Both the position numbers and the translations under genes were made by a program. From NCBI GenBank assembly GCA_019187225.1, contig JABAQQ010000033.1, positions 141,885 through 205,884 on the forward strand: DNA of 64,000 nt. The letters are read 5' to 3'. Below the pieces are notes generated by a model. The model made no database searches and was not told the origin of the DNA. It saw only the letters and a program-made list of their open reading frames with translations. Below, one piece after another: positions 42,587 to 47,047 of the stretch. This DNA comes from Saprospiraceae bacterium (GTDB taxonomy: Bacteria > Bacteroidota > Bacteroidia > Chitinophagales > Saprospiraceae). Numbering within the stretch: position 1 is the first letter of the stretch; every line of letters starts with the position of its first letter.

Positions 42587-43483
42587 CTATTTTTCTATGA
42601 CAGTGAACTTCCCAAACCAAAGCGCTTTATGACCGCCATCCTCCCGCTTTTGACCGATCACAAGGTAATAGAGGCCGGGGCGGATTTTGAGTTTCGTTTC
42701 AAAATCCACTTGATACGAGCCATCGTTTTTTAATTTTATATTGAAAGGGGTAATGAAACTTGGTTGCTTATTTTGCCATGCCTCGGTTCGGTTCGAGTAA
42801 ACAAGCAATTCGAGAGGCTGATCAGAAGTGATTTCTTTTCCGGTCACAGTACCTCGAACGGCAAGTGTTATTTGGGCGTTTTGCAGATGGAACGACGCGC
42901 CGACAGGGGGGCTGCTTATTTCAAAATGAAGGTTGCCGCCGCGCATCATGTCGCCGATCCGGGCCTCCAGAACGGGGTTCGGCTCAAAATCTGCCGGGTC
43001 AGCTACGGCAATAGTTTTGTTTGGACTGGGGCTGGGAGGAAGGTTGGCTGTATCGGTTGGAGTGGCTTTTTGCGGGGACGAGGCGGTATCGGCGGATGGC
43101 TGTTTCGCAGGTTGGGAAGAGGGAGCGGGTGTGGAATCGCTTCCGGGAACCACCCATCGCCAAATCATGTATCCGAATGCTGCGAGCAAAATTATGACAC
43201 CCGCCAAGCGAAGCCAACCGGGGCGCGACGCAAGCGGGAAGGGCGTTTTAGTAGTGAGAGTACCATCCAAAGGCGGCGGGTTGCGCAGCAAGTCGTCGAG
43301 TGCCGAACGCAATTGAAAATTGCCTTTGTCGCCCAGCGATATGTGCAGGGCACGTTGGATTTCCACTTCGGCGCGAAACTCTGCGTCGGTTGCCATTTGA
43401 TGTTCCACTTCCTCACGCTCTGCATCTGCCAGTGTGTTGTCTAAGTATCGCTCAATCAAGTCGTACAATTCTTCCTTGTTCAT
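42587..43483 (-). CDS. Single-span anti-sigma factor (putative)
   Basis: From the ATG at 43483 the protein has 298 residues. Residues 1-68 form a helical domain ('DLIERYLDNTLADAEREEV', 'ATDAEFRAEVEIQRAL') typical of Bacteroidota anti-sigma factors without zinc ligands. A membrane span lies at about 91-110 ('LRLAGVIILLAAFGYMIW'). A Pro/Ser/Thr-rich linker (112-160) leads to a periplasmic domain with 'LYYLVIGQKREDGG' near its end. The start overlaps the sigma gene stop by four bases (ATGA), a strong sign that the two act together. The frame to 43678 is a shadow of the sigma gene. Confidence 0.8.
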   Translation of the reverse strand: MNKEELYDLIERYLDNTLADAEREEVEHQMATDAEFRAEVEIQRALHISLGDKGNFQLRSALDDLLRNPPPLDGTLTTKTPFPLASRPGWLRLAGVIILLAAFGYMIWRWVVPGSDSTPAPSSQPAKQPSADTASSPQKATPTDTANLPPSPSPNKTIAVADPADFEPNPVLEARIGDMMRGGNLHFEISSPPVGASFHLQNAQITLAVRGTVTGKEITSDQPLELLVYSNRTEAWQNKQPSFITPFNIKLKNDGSYQVDFETKLKIRPGLYYLVIGQKREDGGHKALWFGKFTVIEK

Positions 43484-44046
43484 ACTTCGAGCAGTTCCCG
43501 GTATTCCGGACGATTTTTGACCAATTCCACCAGCCGTTCTTTGCATTGGAGTTTGCGGCGGCGGGCATAGCCTTCGCTGCCAAAGCCCATTTGCAAGGCG
43601 ATGGTTTCCATAGGTAGTTTTTGAAAAAACAGTTCGAGGAGTTTTTGACAATCTTCGCCGAGCTGGCGGAAAGCGCACCAGAAAAGATTATCCCTCTCTA
43701 CCTGAAGAAATTCGGCTTCGAGGGAGCTTTCATCAGCAGTATATTTCGCATCTTCTGAAATTATTACCTCTAAAAAGGTAGATTTTTTGGAACGGTGATT
43801 GAGCCATATATTGCGACAAATGCCGTAAAAAAAGGCACTGAACTGACTCGTTAATTGAAAATCAGGCTGTTTGGCTTTCTGATACACCACGAGCACGGCA
43901 TCCTGAAACACATCTTTTGCATCCATTTCCGAGCCGCCATTTTTCCGCAGCAAATCCCGGATAGCGGGGAATTGTTCCCGGTACAGCCGTTCGAGCGCAG
44001 TGCGGTCGCCTGCGAGGATAGCGGAAAGGTCGTCTGTGTGCTTCAT
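43480..44046 (-). CDS. ECF-type RNA polymerase sigma factor
   Basis: The 188-residue protein shows sigma region 2 ('RLYREQFPAIRDLLRKNGG', 'DAKDVFQDAVLVVYQKA', 'FSAFFYGICRNIWLNHRS') and region 4 ('CQKLLELFFQKLPMETIALQ', 'GSEGYARRRKLQCKERL'). It would direct transcription of an unknown regulon once freed from its anti-sigma partner. It lies 46 bases after the TPR-CHAT gene and overlaps the anti-sigma gene, so all three probably form one transcript. Confidence 0.92.
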   Translation of the reverse strand: MKHTDDLSAILAGDRTALERLYREQFPAIRDLLRKNGGSEMDAKDVFQDAVLVVYQKAKQPDFQLTSQFSAFFYGICRNIWLNHRSKKSTFLEVIISEDAKYTADESSLEAEFLQVERDNLFWCAFRQLGEDCQKLLELFFQKLPMETIALQMGFGSEGYARRRKLQCKERLVELVKNRPEYRELLEV

Positions 44047-44092
44047 AGTGTTAAGAGGTCAAAAGTCCATTTTATCCGTGATTTTTTCGATT

Positions 44093-47047
44093 TTACTCTA
44101 CCAGCACAAACCCGGCCCATGCCGACGCGCTCCCCTGATACTTTGTTCGCATGACTTGTTGTGCTCCCCGAAATGCATCGGGTACGTTTTTTTTCTCCTC
44201 CAGATATTGCTTGTAAAACTCTGTCATCAACTCGCCTGTCATTCGGTCGCTCACCTGCCAAAGACTCATGATAAGGTACTTCGCTCCGGCGATTTTGAAC
44301 GCCCGTTGCAAACCATACACACCCTCGTTGCCAACTAAGTCGCCAAGGCCGGTTTCACAGGCGGAAAGCACTGCCAGTTCTGTGTTCGACAGGTTCATCT
44401 GGCTGATTTCGTAGGCTGTCAATATGCCGTCGTCGCCCTGTACCGGGGGCTTGCCCGTGGTCCAGGTAGGGTTTGCCCCGGCGAGGATGAGACCGGAACG
44501 AATCATGGGGTGACTGCTCGCTTTAAAGGCGGGGGTGTTGCCGTCAACTTTTTGCCGTTTGCTTTCCGCCGACTGTTTCGGGTCTGGAAAAAAATAGCCG
44601 TGTGTGGCAAGGTGCAGGATGCGCGGCGATGGTTTGGTGCGGCCAAGTTGTTTGAAAGCTTCTTCTGTGGCTGCTGTGCCGGTGTGCAGGCTGGTTTTAA
44701 GGCCTCGCTTTTTGAGCAGCGCTGCGATGTTGCGGACTTCGGTTTCGGTAGCGGGCAGGGGCCTCCAGGGGTTATTGTTGCCGCCGCGCAGGGTGGTATC
44801 GTAAGGGAAGGGCAAATCAGTGGCAGTGGCAGTGGCAGTGGCAGTAGCAGTGGCAGTGGCAGTAGTAGTGACCGGAGGGAGTCCCGTACCGGAGGTCGAG
44901 ATGGCAGTGCCCCGCATAGCGTCCGAATCCGAATTGGTGTTTTGGCCAGAAGCGGCAGCGATTTTTGAATCGTACTGAATCCCACCAAACAGTGCCGCAC
45001 TACCGCCACTGCTACTGCCACTGCCGCTGCCACTGTTCACCACCAACTGCCTCGTGCTGCCGACAAGAACGAGTTGGTAACGGTCTGCAAAAGTTTGGGT
45101 GGAATTAAGCGGGATAGCGCCAAGGTTGACGCGGTGCAGCAGCCCGGAGGGTGAGCAATATATCGTGTTGATGCCTTGAAGGAGGGTATCGAGTGGTTGC
45201 CAGATAAGCGTGTGGAAATCGTTTTTGTTGTTGCGGAAGGTGTAGCGCTGGTCTATCAGGTCGAAGTCTGGGTCTTGTGTACTAACCAATAAGGGAGCAA
45301 TCTGGCGTTCCTCTAAAAGGGGAACAAAGATGGGAACAGTATCGCCGGGGCGAAGGAGGAGAGCAGCGTACATCACACTGTCGGTGGGCTCAGGAGTGTA
45401 GTAGTTGTAGTGAATAAATTCAATGGCAGCCTCACCCGGCTTGAGAGCCGCCTGCACTTCCTGCCAAGTAACTTGCCGGATGGCGTTGCGATAGCCCGCT
45501 ACGGTGCGCACGAGTTCCTTCTCGATAGCGTTGGCTTTTTCTTCGAGTTCTTCTATGTTCTTACGCTCGGCAATGGGTTTAGAATATTCGGCGGCGAGGT
45601 AGCGTTGATAGGACTTGAAGAGGTTGAATCTAATTGTTGCCAGACTGTCTGCATCAATTAATCTTTTTATCTGCGTTGAAGAATTTAAAACAAATCCTTT
45701 ATAAAAAAGTGAATTATCAAAACAAGTCTCTGATAAAACAGATGAATTCTTGGATGTGATTTGGGCGTAAGAATGGTATTGGTCAATCTCATTATTAAAA
45801 AGATTGAAATAAGAAGAAATCTCCTTTTCAGAGAGATGGCTGATAGACGTAGTTAATAATGACTTGTGAATATTACAGGCCTCTTGAACAACAAGTTCAA
45901 CATCTTTTATGCGATTAGTTTTGAGATATAATATAGATAGATTATTTAGACATGCAGCATGATTGGGTGTAATATCTCCTCTTGCTATTCTTAATATTGA
46001 TGCAGCTTCTCTTAGTAATAATTCAGATTTTTTGTAATCATTTTTCATCAAAAAAACAAATCCCAAGTAATTGAGATTCTGCGCATAGTTTGGATGATCT
46101 TTTCCGTACAGATTTTCCCAAACTGCTTTAGATTCTTCAAGCAATAATTCTGCAGCTTCAAAATCACCTTTAGATAAATACAGTTTCGCAAGGTGGTGCA
46201 GGCTCCATGCATAACCATTAGACATTTTACCTAATTTTTTTGCCCTAATTTCTTTAACCATGACAAGAAGTCGCTCAGATTCTGTATATTTTCCTGTAAT
46301 TCTATAAATATTGGCAAGCCCAATCATTGACCCAGTAATATTTACATTGTTTTTATCAATATTTTCTCGTATGCCTTTGCTTTCCAAATACAACTTCTCT
46401 GATTTGGCATATTGACCAGTTATCATGTAAAGTCCTGCCAAACTTTGAATAGTTGCAGAATATCTAATGTTTTCTTTTCCTATTATGTTTTCTTGAACTG
46501 TTTTAACTCTAGTGTAGAGCGTCTCAGCTAGTGAATACCTTCCAGTTAGTTGGCACAAGACTGCTAAATTATATAATGTAGCAGCATATTCAATATTCTC
46601 TGTGTCATTTATACTTTCCCAAAGAGATTTGCATTCTAAGTGTATTGTCTCGGCCATGTCATATCTTCCGATAATTTTTAGGTAATTTCCATGGGAGCGA
46701 AGTTCCTTGGTATATGCATAAATATCTCTGCTTAGCGATTTTTTCCAAATGTCTCTCGCTAAGCGATACCAGTTTTCTGCTTCCGCATAATCGAATTTGG
46801 CATCGAATATTTTGCCATGATTAATATATGCACTGGCTAGGGAAAGCGATGAGGGCCCCAGGCTTTTAATAGCCAATTTTTCAGCAGTCTCGTTTTTGAT
46901 CAATGCCTCATCGAATCTCTTTTCCTCTGCCAGGATGTTCGCTATCTTGAGTAGGCTATCCACCTGTCTTACCACAGTCGAATCTATGACTTGGGAAAAA
47001 GCCAGCCACGGAAGGAGCCAAGGCAGGAAAAGAAAGGTTGTTTTCAT
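44093..47047 (-). CDS. Secreted TPR-CHAT caspase-like protease
   Basis: The 984-residue protein has a signal peptide ('FLFLPWLLPWLAFSQ'). About ten TPR units follow (residues 25-410, e.g. 'ADAKFDYAEAENWYRLARD'-like repeats each with A-E-x-L-Y), then a helical linker (430-560) and a CHAT domain (about 600-984). The caspase-like dyad is His816 ('HLATHGYFF') and Cys897 ('VLSACETGLGD'), so proteolytic activity is possible. Two low-complexity stretches, Gly/Ser (about 672-681) and Thr/Ala (about 727-743), are encoded by inverted hexamer repeats. The TPR half is clearly AT-rich while the CHAT half is GC-rich. It heads an operon with an ECF sigma and anti-sigma gene; a role as their activator is inferred. 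Confidence 0.88.
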   Translation of the reverse strand: MKTTFLFLPWLLPWLAFSQVIDSTVVRQVDSLLKIANILAEEKRFDEALIKNETAEKLAIKSLGPSSLSLASAYINHGKIFDAKFDYAEAENWYRLARDIWKKSLSRDIYAYTKELRSHGNYLKIIGRYDMAETIHLECKSLWESINDTENIEYAATLYNLAVLCQLTGRYSLAETLYTRVKTVQENIIGKENIRYSATIQSLAGLYMITGQYAKSEKLYLESKGIRENIDKNNVNITGSMIGLANIYRITGKYTESERLLVMVKEIRAKKLGKMSNGYAWSLHHLAKLYLSKGDFEAAELLLEESKAVWENLYGKDHPNYAQNLNYLGFVFLMKNDYKKSELLLREAASILRIARGDITPNHAACLNNLSILYLKTNRIKDVELVVQEACNIHKSLLTTSISHLSEKEISSYFNLFNNEIDQYHSYAQITSKNSSVLSETCFDNSLFYKGFVLNSSTQIKRLIDADSLATIRFNLFKSYQRYLAAEYSKPIAERKNIEELEEKANAIEKELVRTVAGYRNAIRQVTWQEVQAALKPGEAAIEFIHYNYYTPEPTDSVMYAALLLRPGDTVPIFVPLLEERQIAPLLVSTQDPDFDLIDQRYTFRNNKNDFHTLIWQPLDTLLQGINTIYCSPSGLLHRVNLGAIPLNSTQTFADRYQLVLVGSTRQLVVNSGSGSGSSSGGSAALFGGIQYDSKIAAASGQNTNSDSDAMRGTAISTSGTGLPPVTTTATATATATATATATDLPFPYDTTLRGGNNNPWRPLPATETEVRNIAALLKKRGLKTSLHTGTAATEEAFKQLGRTKPSPRILHLATHGYFFPDPKQSAESKRQKVDGNTPAFKASSHPMIRSGLILAGANPTWTTGKPPVQGDDGILTAYEISQMNLSNTELAVLSACETGLGDLVGNEGVYGLQRAFKIAGAKYLIMSLWQVSDRMTGELMTEFYKQYLEEKKNVPDAFRGAQQVMRTKYQGSASAWAGFVLVE
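44819..44870. repeat. Hexamer repeat in the CHAT gene (Thr/Ala coding)
   Basis: Units of 'ggcagt' with a few 'agcagt' variants. On the coding strand they give alternating Thr and Ala. The array is inverted relative to the one at 45005-45035. Confidence 0.85.
45005..45035. repeat. Hexamer repeat in the CHAT gene (Gly/Ser coding)
   Basis: Units of 'gccact' and 'gctact', the reverse complement of the array at 44819-44870. On the coding strand they give alternating Ser and Gly. About 134 bases separate the two inverted arrays. Confidence 0.85.

Follow-up and report, generated by a model that had tools for sequence, protein, structure and literature searches.

Linking a CHAT protein to the control of an ECF sigma factor has precedents, namely Craspase, DdvA and the CHAT genes that a review notes beside ECF54 sigma factors. 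In Myxococcus xanthus, DdvA is the cognate anti-sigma factor of the ECF sigma factor DdvS; as of 2015 what triggers it had not been identified (PMC4374960). The DdvA of the PDB (8ROT, 8RW5) is presumably, judging from its name and the titles, this M. xanthus protein, with a CHAT domain that would be periplasmic; our literature search found no paper describing the structure. In type III-E CRISPR, Csx29 cleaves Csx30 and Csx30 inhibits a sigma factor (PMC10028731). For the ECF54 group, the review (PMC8999054) reports CHAT, subtilase and carboxypeptidase genes in the genomic context, proposes control by proteolysis and describes these sigma factors as being without an anti-sigma factor. In the RpoE-RseA-DegS pathway, the site-1 protease that cuts the membrane anti-sigma factor belongs to the HtrA family (PMC10028731, PMC8103513). 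Only 6% of the ECF sigma factors of Bacteroidetes were found beside class I anti-sigma factors and other classes are suspected (PMC7406223). No report of a sigma/anti-sigma/CHAT triple outside type III-E was found in the literature search.

ORF calling in the window (the whole stretch of 64,000 nucleotides that was analysed, from a Saprospiraceae-like genome) identified a three-gene module, encoding an exported TPR-CHAT protein, an ECF sigma factor and a single-span anti-sigma factor, all on the minus strand (Table 1). The CHAT and sigma genes are separated by 46 bases, and the anti-sigma start and the sigma stop share the four bases ATGA; because of this overlap the anti-sigma start was placed there and a longer, GTG-started ORF was dropped. 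The genome contains about sixteen modules of this kind, the window module among them. A known defence system was also considered and rejected, since none of the three window proteins had a match in PADLOC.

Table 1. Features of the CHAT/sigma/anti-sigma module, in positions of the window.
Feature	Position	Strand	Evidence
Exported TPR-CHAT protein, 984 aa	44093..47047	-	ORF; Pfam TPR and CHAT; AlphaFold model
Signal-peptide-like N-terminus, residues 1-19	46991..47047	-	By eye
CHAT domain PF12770, residues 612-983	44099..45214	-	Pfam, E 9e-55
Predicted catalytic His816 codon	44600..44602	-	Invariant in alignments
Predicted catalytic Cys897 codon	44357..44359	-	At least 90% in own-genome alignment; invariant among homologues
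ECF sigma factor, 188 aa, divergent CHAT-linked sigma family	43480..44046	-	PF04542; TIGR02937; family profile A1; tree
Single-span anti-sigma factor, 298 aa	42587..43483	-	ATGA overlap; NF052375 below cut-off; structure model
Anti-sigma transmembrane helix, residues 90-111	43151..43216	-	Model and hydropathy
Anti-sigma periplasmic beta-sandwich (Ig-like) domain, residues 183-296	42596..42937	-	Model; Foldseek, low TM-scores

The window CHAT protein carries TPRs besides its CHAT domain, and its AlphaFold model has a mean pLDDT of 83.2. His816 was invariant across 26 aligned CHAT proteins of the same genome and Cys897 was present in at least 90% of them, and both residues were invariant in 32 aligned homologues. 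Both were also found in 78 of the 80 CHAT ORFs that share a fetched locus with a sigma factor of the CHAT-linked family, the other two ORFs being cut off by contig ends. By its PF12770 domain and intact dyad the window protein falls among the CHAT proteases; its activity is predicted. Its N-terminus, MKTTFLFLPWLLPWLAFSQ, resembles a signal peptide by eye and was missed by our crude script rule, which found such stretches in 64/76 linked full-length CHAT proteins. Signal-like N-termini were equally common in unlinked CHAT proteins (74/76) and export is therefore not particular to the module. The window protein has no C-terminal membrane segment, and a hydrophobic tail was found in only 20/76 of the linked full-length CHAT proteins in the set of relatives. 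In one locus (L143) the CHAT protein is without a clear signal peptide, yet the anti-sigma factor spans the membrane. The use of topology as a natural experiment was abandoned, as the single case (L144, an anti-sigma factor without a clear span beside a CHAT protein with a doubtful signal peptide) is ambiguous and L143 points in the opposite direction.

The window sigma factor is an ECF sigma factor by its sigma-70 region 2, matching Pfam Sigma70_r2 (PF04542; E 3.4e-6, 27.2 bits against a cut-off of 24) and NCBIfam TIGR02937 sigma70-ECF (60.4 against a cut-off of 42.9). No Pfam match to region 4 was obtained at E 0.001; the TIGR02937 match covers residues 17-174 of 188. The anti-sigma factor matched NCBIfam NF052375 with E 6e-8 but with 33 bits against a cut-off of 100, and its N-terminal profile (A8) gave nothing significant in the PDB (best E 0.018, to a protein unrelated by name). 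In the structure model, helices at residues 3-67 are followed by a stretch of low confidence and by one hydrophobic helix, and the beta-sandwich domain had beta-sandwich proteins as its Foldseek matches. The protein thus fits the plan of a helical cytoplasmic domain and one membrane span, coupled to a sigma gene, and would inhibit the sigma factor. The gene arrangement, the intact dyad and the identities of the sigma factor and single-span anti-sigma factor, as given in the initial annotation, were all borne out, and the signal peptide was by eye.

Comparison of the CHAT fold with solved structures gave DdvA as the top match and a Cas7-11/Csx29/Csx30 chain as the second, and a CHAT-domain profile against PDB sequences likewise placed DdvA first (E 8.8e-11; best Csx29-type match 5e-8). 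Like the window module, DdvS-DdvA comprises an ECF sigma factor, a transmembrane anti-sigma factor and a CHAT domain that retains His and Cys at the catalytic positions; in DdvA, however, CHAT and anti-sigma are joined in one chain of 991 residues, whereas the window has separate genes, a CHAT protein exported alone and modules in multiple copies. Craspase/CASP (Csx29, Csx30 and CASP-sigma) also brings together a TPR-CHAT protease, a sigma inhibitor and an ECF-like sigma factor, but its trigger is target RNA, whereas the window module is without Cas7-11, its CHAT protein is exported and its inhibitor is membrane-anchored. In a genome-wide search for Cas7-11 with a CHAT gene, RAMP matches lay only on contig C36 (344, 364 and 625 aa, each in a frame of its own), which had no CHAT match. 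Craspase, originally offered as the analogue, shares the parts but is not the sole analogue, and DdvA must be named beside it. The ECF54 systems, with which the window sigma factor is compared through their published description, have the same parts in another arrangement and are described as having no anti-sigma factor. The protease of RpoE-RseA-DegS is trypsin-like, whereas that of the window is caspase-like with TPRs; a DegS/HtrA-like gene takes the protease slot in one locus of the phylum sample (L255, below).

Among the CHAT matches listed, at least 16 of the 20 family sigma factors of this genome had a CHAT gene no more than 10 kb away (about 1.4 expected), as did at least 57/99 in relatives (about 2.8 expected) and at least 29/43 where both flanks reached 5.4 kb. 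For the other ECF-like sigma factors of this genome the count was 0/25 among the matches listed (Fisher's exact test against 16/20, 7e-9), these 25 being lower-scoring profile matches of which one (C14:7170) may be non-ECF. The linkage and orientation counts rest on the 150 CHAT matches listed out of a larger number (25/26 for this genome). Since the sixteen own-genome cases seeded the profile, the less biased figures are 57/99 in other genomes and 14/40 in the phylum sample. Genes for C14 caspases also occurred within 10 kb of the sigma gene in 5/99 cases in relatives and 3/20 in this genome (1.9 and 0.6 expected). Such proximity could be a by-product of paralogue expansion of the two families in large genomes, as sigma and CHAT counts both scale with genome size (rho 0.86 and 0.88). 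Their agreement nevertheless persisted after genome size was accounted for (partial rho 0.68), adjacency was found in all four orientations and extended to further families within the phylum, and the remaining ECF sigma factors of the genome were not near CHAT genes among the matches listed, making this explanation highly improbable.

The 73 linked sigma-CHAT pairs among the matches listed included all four orientations, with 46 pairs on opposite strands (G013:C121 was scored as unlinked, though locus L086 retains the beginning of a CHAT ORF that runs off the contig). A single operon, as initially proposed for the co-directional window genes, is thus not the general pattern. The refuting condition set initially, that CHAT genes rarely adjoin sigma/anti-sigma pairs, gave a mixed outcome: such co-occurrence is common in the lineage, but when the 79 best CHAT homologues from elsewhere were examined, only 9 had both partners in the fetched flanks, many of which were short.

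A sample of the phylum Bacteroidota, comprising 40 loci of the 54 non-own matches listed with at least one from each of 37 genomes, overturned the idea, taken from the survey of best homologues, that the module is confined to Saprospiraceae. The figure of 38/198 from the phylum search is a lower bound, with at most 16 candidates per genome scored at E 1e-30. An anti-sigma factor was present in 38 of the 40 loci, a CHAT gene nearby in 14 and an anti-sigma factor with a trypsin-like domain in 13, while CHAT and the trypsin-fused form never occurred together (Fisher's exact test, 0.001); the trypsin-type assignments use a profile built from two sequences. The 13 loci with neither protease type included two without a recognised anti-sigma factor and L255, in which the sigma gene is followed by a gene for a 187-aa anti-sigma-like membrane protein and then by a gene judged DegS/HtrA-like from the same profile and our own reading. 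All 14 CHAT proteins of this sample keep His and Cys and end in a hydrophobic segment by eye, and 12 have a clear signal-like start, those of L256 and L260 being uncertain. Regarding the novelty of trypsin-fused anti-sigma factors, PMC8999054, PMC8103513 and PMC7406223 do not mention trypsin.

At nine loci the CHAT gene is preceded on its own strand, at a distance of -9 to 67 bases, by the end of a gene from one neighbour family, some of whose members carry PKD and DUF7619 domains. This arrangement would suit a CHAT protein whose substrate is a third protein, for instance the product encoded directly before it, or one that binds a ligand and partners the anti-sigma factor without cutting. The catalytic pair is, however, kept in the linked CHAT ORFs (78/80, the others truncated) and throughout the phylum sample (14/14), and the alternatives that occupy the slot are proteases, so we consider such roles quite unlikely. 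No gene of the window locus belonged to any of the 25 largest families of neighbours, and the earlier suggestion that the divergent secreted genes are targets or sensors found no support there.

ECF sigma factors often control their own locus. An autoregulated operon could include the CHAT gene, because in the window it is co-directional with the sigma gene and 46 bases from it; the CHAT protein would then be an output, transcribed by a sigma factor that another protease has freed, and would hit envelope or extracellular targets, for example in stress or cell death. Against this, the upstream regions of sigma genes and opposite-strand CHAT genes had no more in common than did mismatched pairs taken from one genome (35 loci, low power; percentile 0.496 +- 0.054), and a sigma-driven CHAT promoter was dropped as a candidate. 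The output role also leaves unexplained the 13 trypsin-fused anti-sigma factors without a nearby CHAT gene and the single chain of DdvA, and it appears unlikely.

Covariation was analysed in 66 of the 75 CHAT-bearing modules (CHAT at least 700 aa and at most 6 kb away, clear span, duplicates dropped). The correlation of CHAT with the periplasmic half of the anti-sigma factor was reached by 0/1000 within-genome CHAT shuffles, as was that with the cytoplasmic half (0/1000), and CHAT tracked the periplasmic half better than sigma in no more than 84% of bootstrap replicates. By eye, an Arg-Gly cleavage motif seemed conserved behind an aromatic-Pro segment; it was discarded, as the candidate Arg motif occurred in 56/69 (input of 111 anti-sigma factors, each clearly membrane-spanning and no longer than 450 aa) and barely exceeded shuffles (mean 47.3, maximum 56). 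Fusions of CHAT and anti-sigma were likewise rejected, as no ORF matched both profiles in loci L009-L036 and L053-L151, and the anti-sigma N-terminal profile, searched against the N-termini of CHAT proteins, reached E 0.085 at best.

Given the gene content, linkage, alternation pattern, intact dyad, export-type sequences and folds observed, CHAT is probably the periplasmic protease that initiates cleavage of the anti-sigma factor, exchangeable with trypsin-like ones; the cutting, its cue, the downstream steps and the regulon are what we infer. The helical cytoplasmic domain of the anti-sigma factor, which would cross the inner membrane once, would hold the ECF sigma factor, and the exported protein would reside in the periplasm with its TPR superhelix sensing a cue or partner. 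Its Cys-His domain would start by cleaving the anti-sigma factor within its periplasmic portion, as DegS does with RseA, and further proteolysis would free the sigma factor. The protease slot would be interchangeable, filled by CHAT in trans, by a C14 caspase, a DegS/HtrA-like gene or a fused trypsin-like domain in sister units, and by fused CHAT in DdvA. The original proposal of a periplasmic CHAT protein acting on the anti-sigma factor outside CRISPR thereby gained support from comparison, through the repeated linkage, the compartments that match, the alternation with trypsin-like proteases and the example of DdvA, while cutting remains the predicted step.

More tentatively, Bacteroidota may possess a class of periplasmic caspase-gated transcription switches, with up to about sixteen insulated sets per cell and a swappable initiating protease (CHAT, caspase C14, HtrA or a fused trypsin-like domain), of which the type III-E cassette and DdvA might be two offshoots. 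If the proposed role of CHAT is true, caspase-fold proteases would steer gene expression through anti-sigma cleavage far beyond CRISPR, with many parallel channels per cell. This would provide a plausible ancestry for Craspase, a testable activation mechanism for DdvA and a naturally occurring collection of protease-sigma switches that work in parallel, and would bear on the gap left by the 6% of Bacteroidetes ECF sigma factors beside class I anti-sigma factors (PMC7406223). Because the proteases alternate between cis and trans, this role can be tested directly.

The three-gene arrangement described in the initial annotation, in which an ECF sigma factor gene lies 46 bases behind a TPR-CHAT gene and overlaps the following anti-sigma gene by 4 bases, was borne out in both particulars, and it extends further than the sequence alone could show. 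The nearest named relatives of the CHAT protein of the window were from Saprospiraceae MAGs. The structural model of this protein was good (mean pLDDT 83.2, pTM 0.80); Thr-Ala low-complexity repeats lie in a low-confidence loop at about residues 696-757 and also occur in several CHAT paralogues, including those at loci L010, L011 and L015. In the model of the anti-sigma factor (mean pLDDT 70.7) a predicted helical cytoplasmic domain is followed by a single hydrophobic helix, and a linker of low confidence then leads to a putative periplasmic beta-sandwich, for which the PDB matches were weak Ig-like folds.

Features of the module and related loci
Feature	Location	Strand	Remarks
TPR-CHAT protein, predicted from sequence to be exported	window, 44093-47047	minus	
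ECF sigma factor	window, 43480-44046	minus	
Anti-sigma factor proper	window, 42587-43483	minus	overlap with sigma gene ATGA, 4 bases
Three separate RAMP-family genes	source genome (G000), contig C36:20287-26671		no CHAT on C36
Anti-sigma factors with trypsin-like domain in the same chain	L235, L237, L242-L245, L247-L253		sister sigmas, 13/40 phylum loci
Neighbour family, partly with PKD and DUF7619 domains	L025, L027, L028, L030, L088, L103, L126, L127, L133		gaps to CHAT -9 to 67 bases

The linkage was examined in 30 genomes (the source genome and 29 relatives) using profile thresholds of E 1e-22 for the sigma factor and 1e-10 for CHAT. Each profile matched in 23/30 genomes, presence was concordant in 28/30, and the numbers of the two genes were correlated (rho 0.92; 0.68 once genome size was allowed for). 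Outside the source genome and among the matches listed, a CHAT gene was found within 10 kb of 57/99 sigma genes, as compared with 2.8 expected, and for 29 of the 43 sigmas with at least 5.4 kb of sequence on each side. Among the matches listed, 27 of the 73 linked pairs were co-directional and 46 were opposite, and this free orientation argues for retained proximity rather than one frozen operon. A recognisable anti-sigma gene was located downstream of 117/120 sigma ORFs (119 distinct), and both catalytic residues were kept in 78 of the 80 CHAT ORFs sharing a locus with a sigma of the family, the remaining two running off contig ends. Among the linked full-length modules, L144 had the weakest anti-sigma membrane span (1.02) and its CHAT signal peptide is doubtful.

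Seen from the CHAT side, a family sigma was present within 10 kb of 18/25 CHATs in the source genome, 49/93 in the same genus and 12/32 in other genera (among the matches listed). Co-occurrence, which the initial annotation proposed to check, is frequent among the relatives, but elsewhere only 9 of the best 79 CHAT relatives in named genomes had both sigma and anti-sigma (two had an anti-sigma only), many of the fetched flanks being short. Given these rates, the CHAT type serves several contexts, of which sigma linkage is only one. Signal-like N-termini were equally common in unlinked (74/76) and linked (10/10) CHATs.

The source genome (7.18 Mb, 73 contigs) has 26 CHAT matches, and mapping the surroundings of all of them showed that 16 sigma/anti-sigma pairs serve 18 CHAT genes. 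Eight CHAT genes are without a pair; of these, L024 and L025 lie at a contig start or close to one, and L031 is short and lacks the Cys. At L011 (C26:49497-59074) one pair is followed by three tandem TPR-CHAT genes. Sigma-profile scores across the genome were two-humped: 20 genes scored at least 94 bits and the remainder no more than 68, and 16 of the 20 were near a CHAT gene. Since the profile seeds score high by construction, a separate tree of 37 sigmas was built, in which 16/17 other ECF sigmas formed one clade (100/98) and the CHAT-linked sigmas fell outside it in several deep lines, not as a single clade. None of the 25 other ECF-like sigmas of this genome had a CHAT gene within 10 kb.

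The sigma family was present in at least 38/198 Bacteroidota genomes, the source genome included, and 40 loci were sampled from the other 37. An anti-sigma was found in 38/40 and a CHAT gene within about 7 kb in 14/40 (same family 4/8, same order 1/7, beyond 9/25). CHAT was present in 14/17 loci with an anti-sigma of at most 265 aa and in 0/21 with a longer one. When eight anti-sigmas were scanned against Pfam, two long ones proved to have a Trypsin_2 domain (E about 1e-24) on the C-terminal side of their membrane span, and a profile made from these two sequences detected a trypsin-like domain in 13/40 loci (Ser motif in 13, His motif in 12). A trypsin-fused anti-sigma and a linked CHAT were never found together in the 40 loci (Fisher 0.001, which overstates independence as the loci are related by descent). 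The 13 loci with neither include L266 and L269, in which no anti-sigma was recognised, and L255, where the sigma gene is followed by a small anti-sigma-like membrane protein and a membrane-anchored DegS/HtrA-like protease. All 14 CHATs in this sample kept His and Cys and had a hydrophobic C-terminal segment (by eye), and 12 had a clear signal-like start. Such tails fit, as expected, inner-membrane anchoring that would leave the CHAT domain in the periplasm; they occurred in only 20/76 linked full-length CHATs of the relatives' set and not in the CHAT protein of the window.

Caspase C14 genes stood beside or in place of CHAT at L018, L021, L035, L086, L104, L142 and L145 (Pfam) and, assigned by position and similarity, at L134, with a signal-like start at L021, L142 and L145 (by eye). 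Papain-like C1 genes were found at L134 and L145. Enrichment of C14 near sigmas was modest (5/99 in relatives against 1.9 expected, 3/20 in the source genome against 0.6). At L145, L142 and L134 the C14 gene near sigma/anti-sigma, with C1 at L145 and L134, makes up an alternative protease set. In nine loci a neighbour family, partly with PKD and DUF7619 domains, lies directly in front of CHAT and is a possible substrate or sensor.

A Foldseek search of the PDB with the CHAT model returned the transmembrane anti-sigma factor DdvA first, then a Csx29-containing complex and separase; query-normalised TM-scores were low (DdvA 0.22, Csx29-containing complex 0.39) and the whole-chain overlay was loose. 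By sequence, the CHAT-domain profile also ranked DdvA top (E 8.8e-11), with Csx29-type chains next (5e-8), and the His and Cys positions are conserved in DdvA. A Myxococcus paper (PMC4374960) names DdvA as the cognate anti-sigma of the ECF sigma factor DdvS and calls its trigger unknown. As a natural anti-sigma/CHAT fusion, DdvA supports a joint function of the split genes, and it is already a precedent for CHAT in anti-sigma control outside CRISPR. In type III-E systems the sigma inhibitor Csx30 is cut by Csx29 (PMC10028731). The RAMP genes of the source genome are on a different contig, on which no CHAT was found, and probably belong to a type III CRISPR locus of the multi-subunit kind.

Over 66 CHAT/anti-sigma/sigma triplets, CHAT-domain distances correlated at 0.22 with the anti-sigma periplasmic half, 0.15 with the cytoplasmic half and 0.12 with the sigma; the sigma correlated best with the cytoplasmic half (0.28), and the two halves with each other at 0.10. 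When CHATs were shuffled within genomes, these values were reached in 0/1000, 0/1000 and 24/1000 cases for periplasmic half, cytoplasmic half and sigma, and the preference of CHAT for the periplasmic half over the sigma was seen in 84% of bootstraps only. The pattern suggests, rather than proves, that CHAT and anti-sigma are in contact in the periplasm. The best-supported reading, which we consider somewhat probable, is that CHAT would make the initiating cut in the anti-sigma factor.
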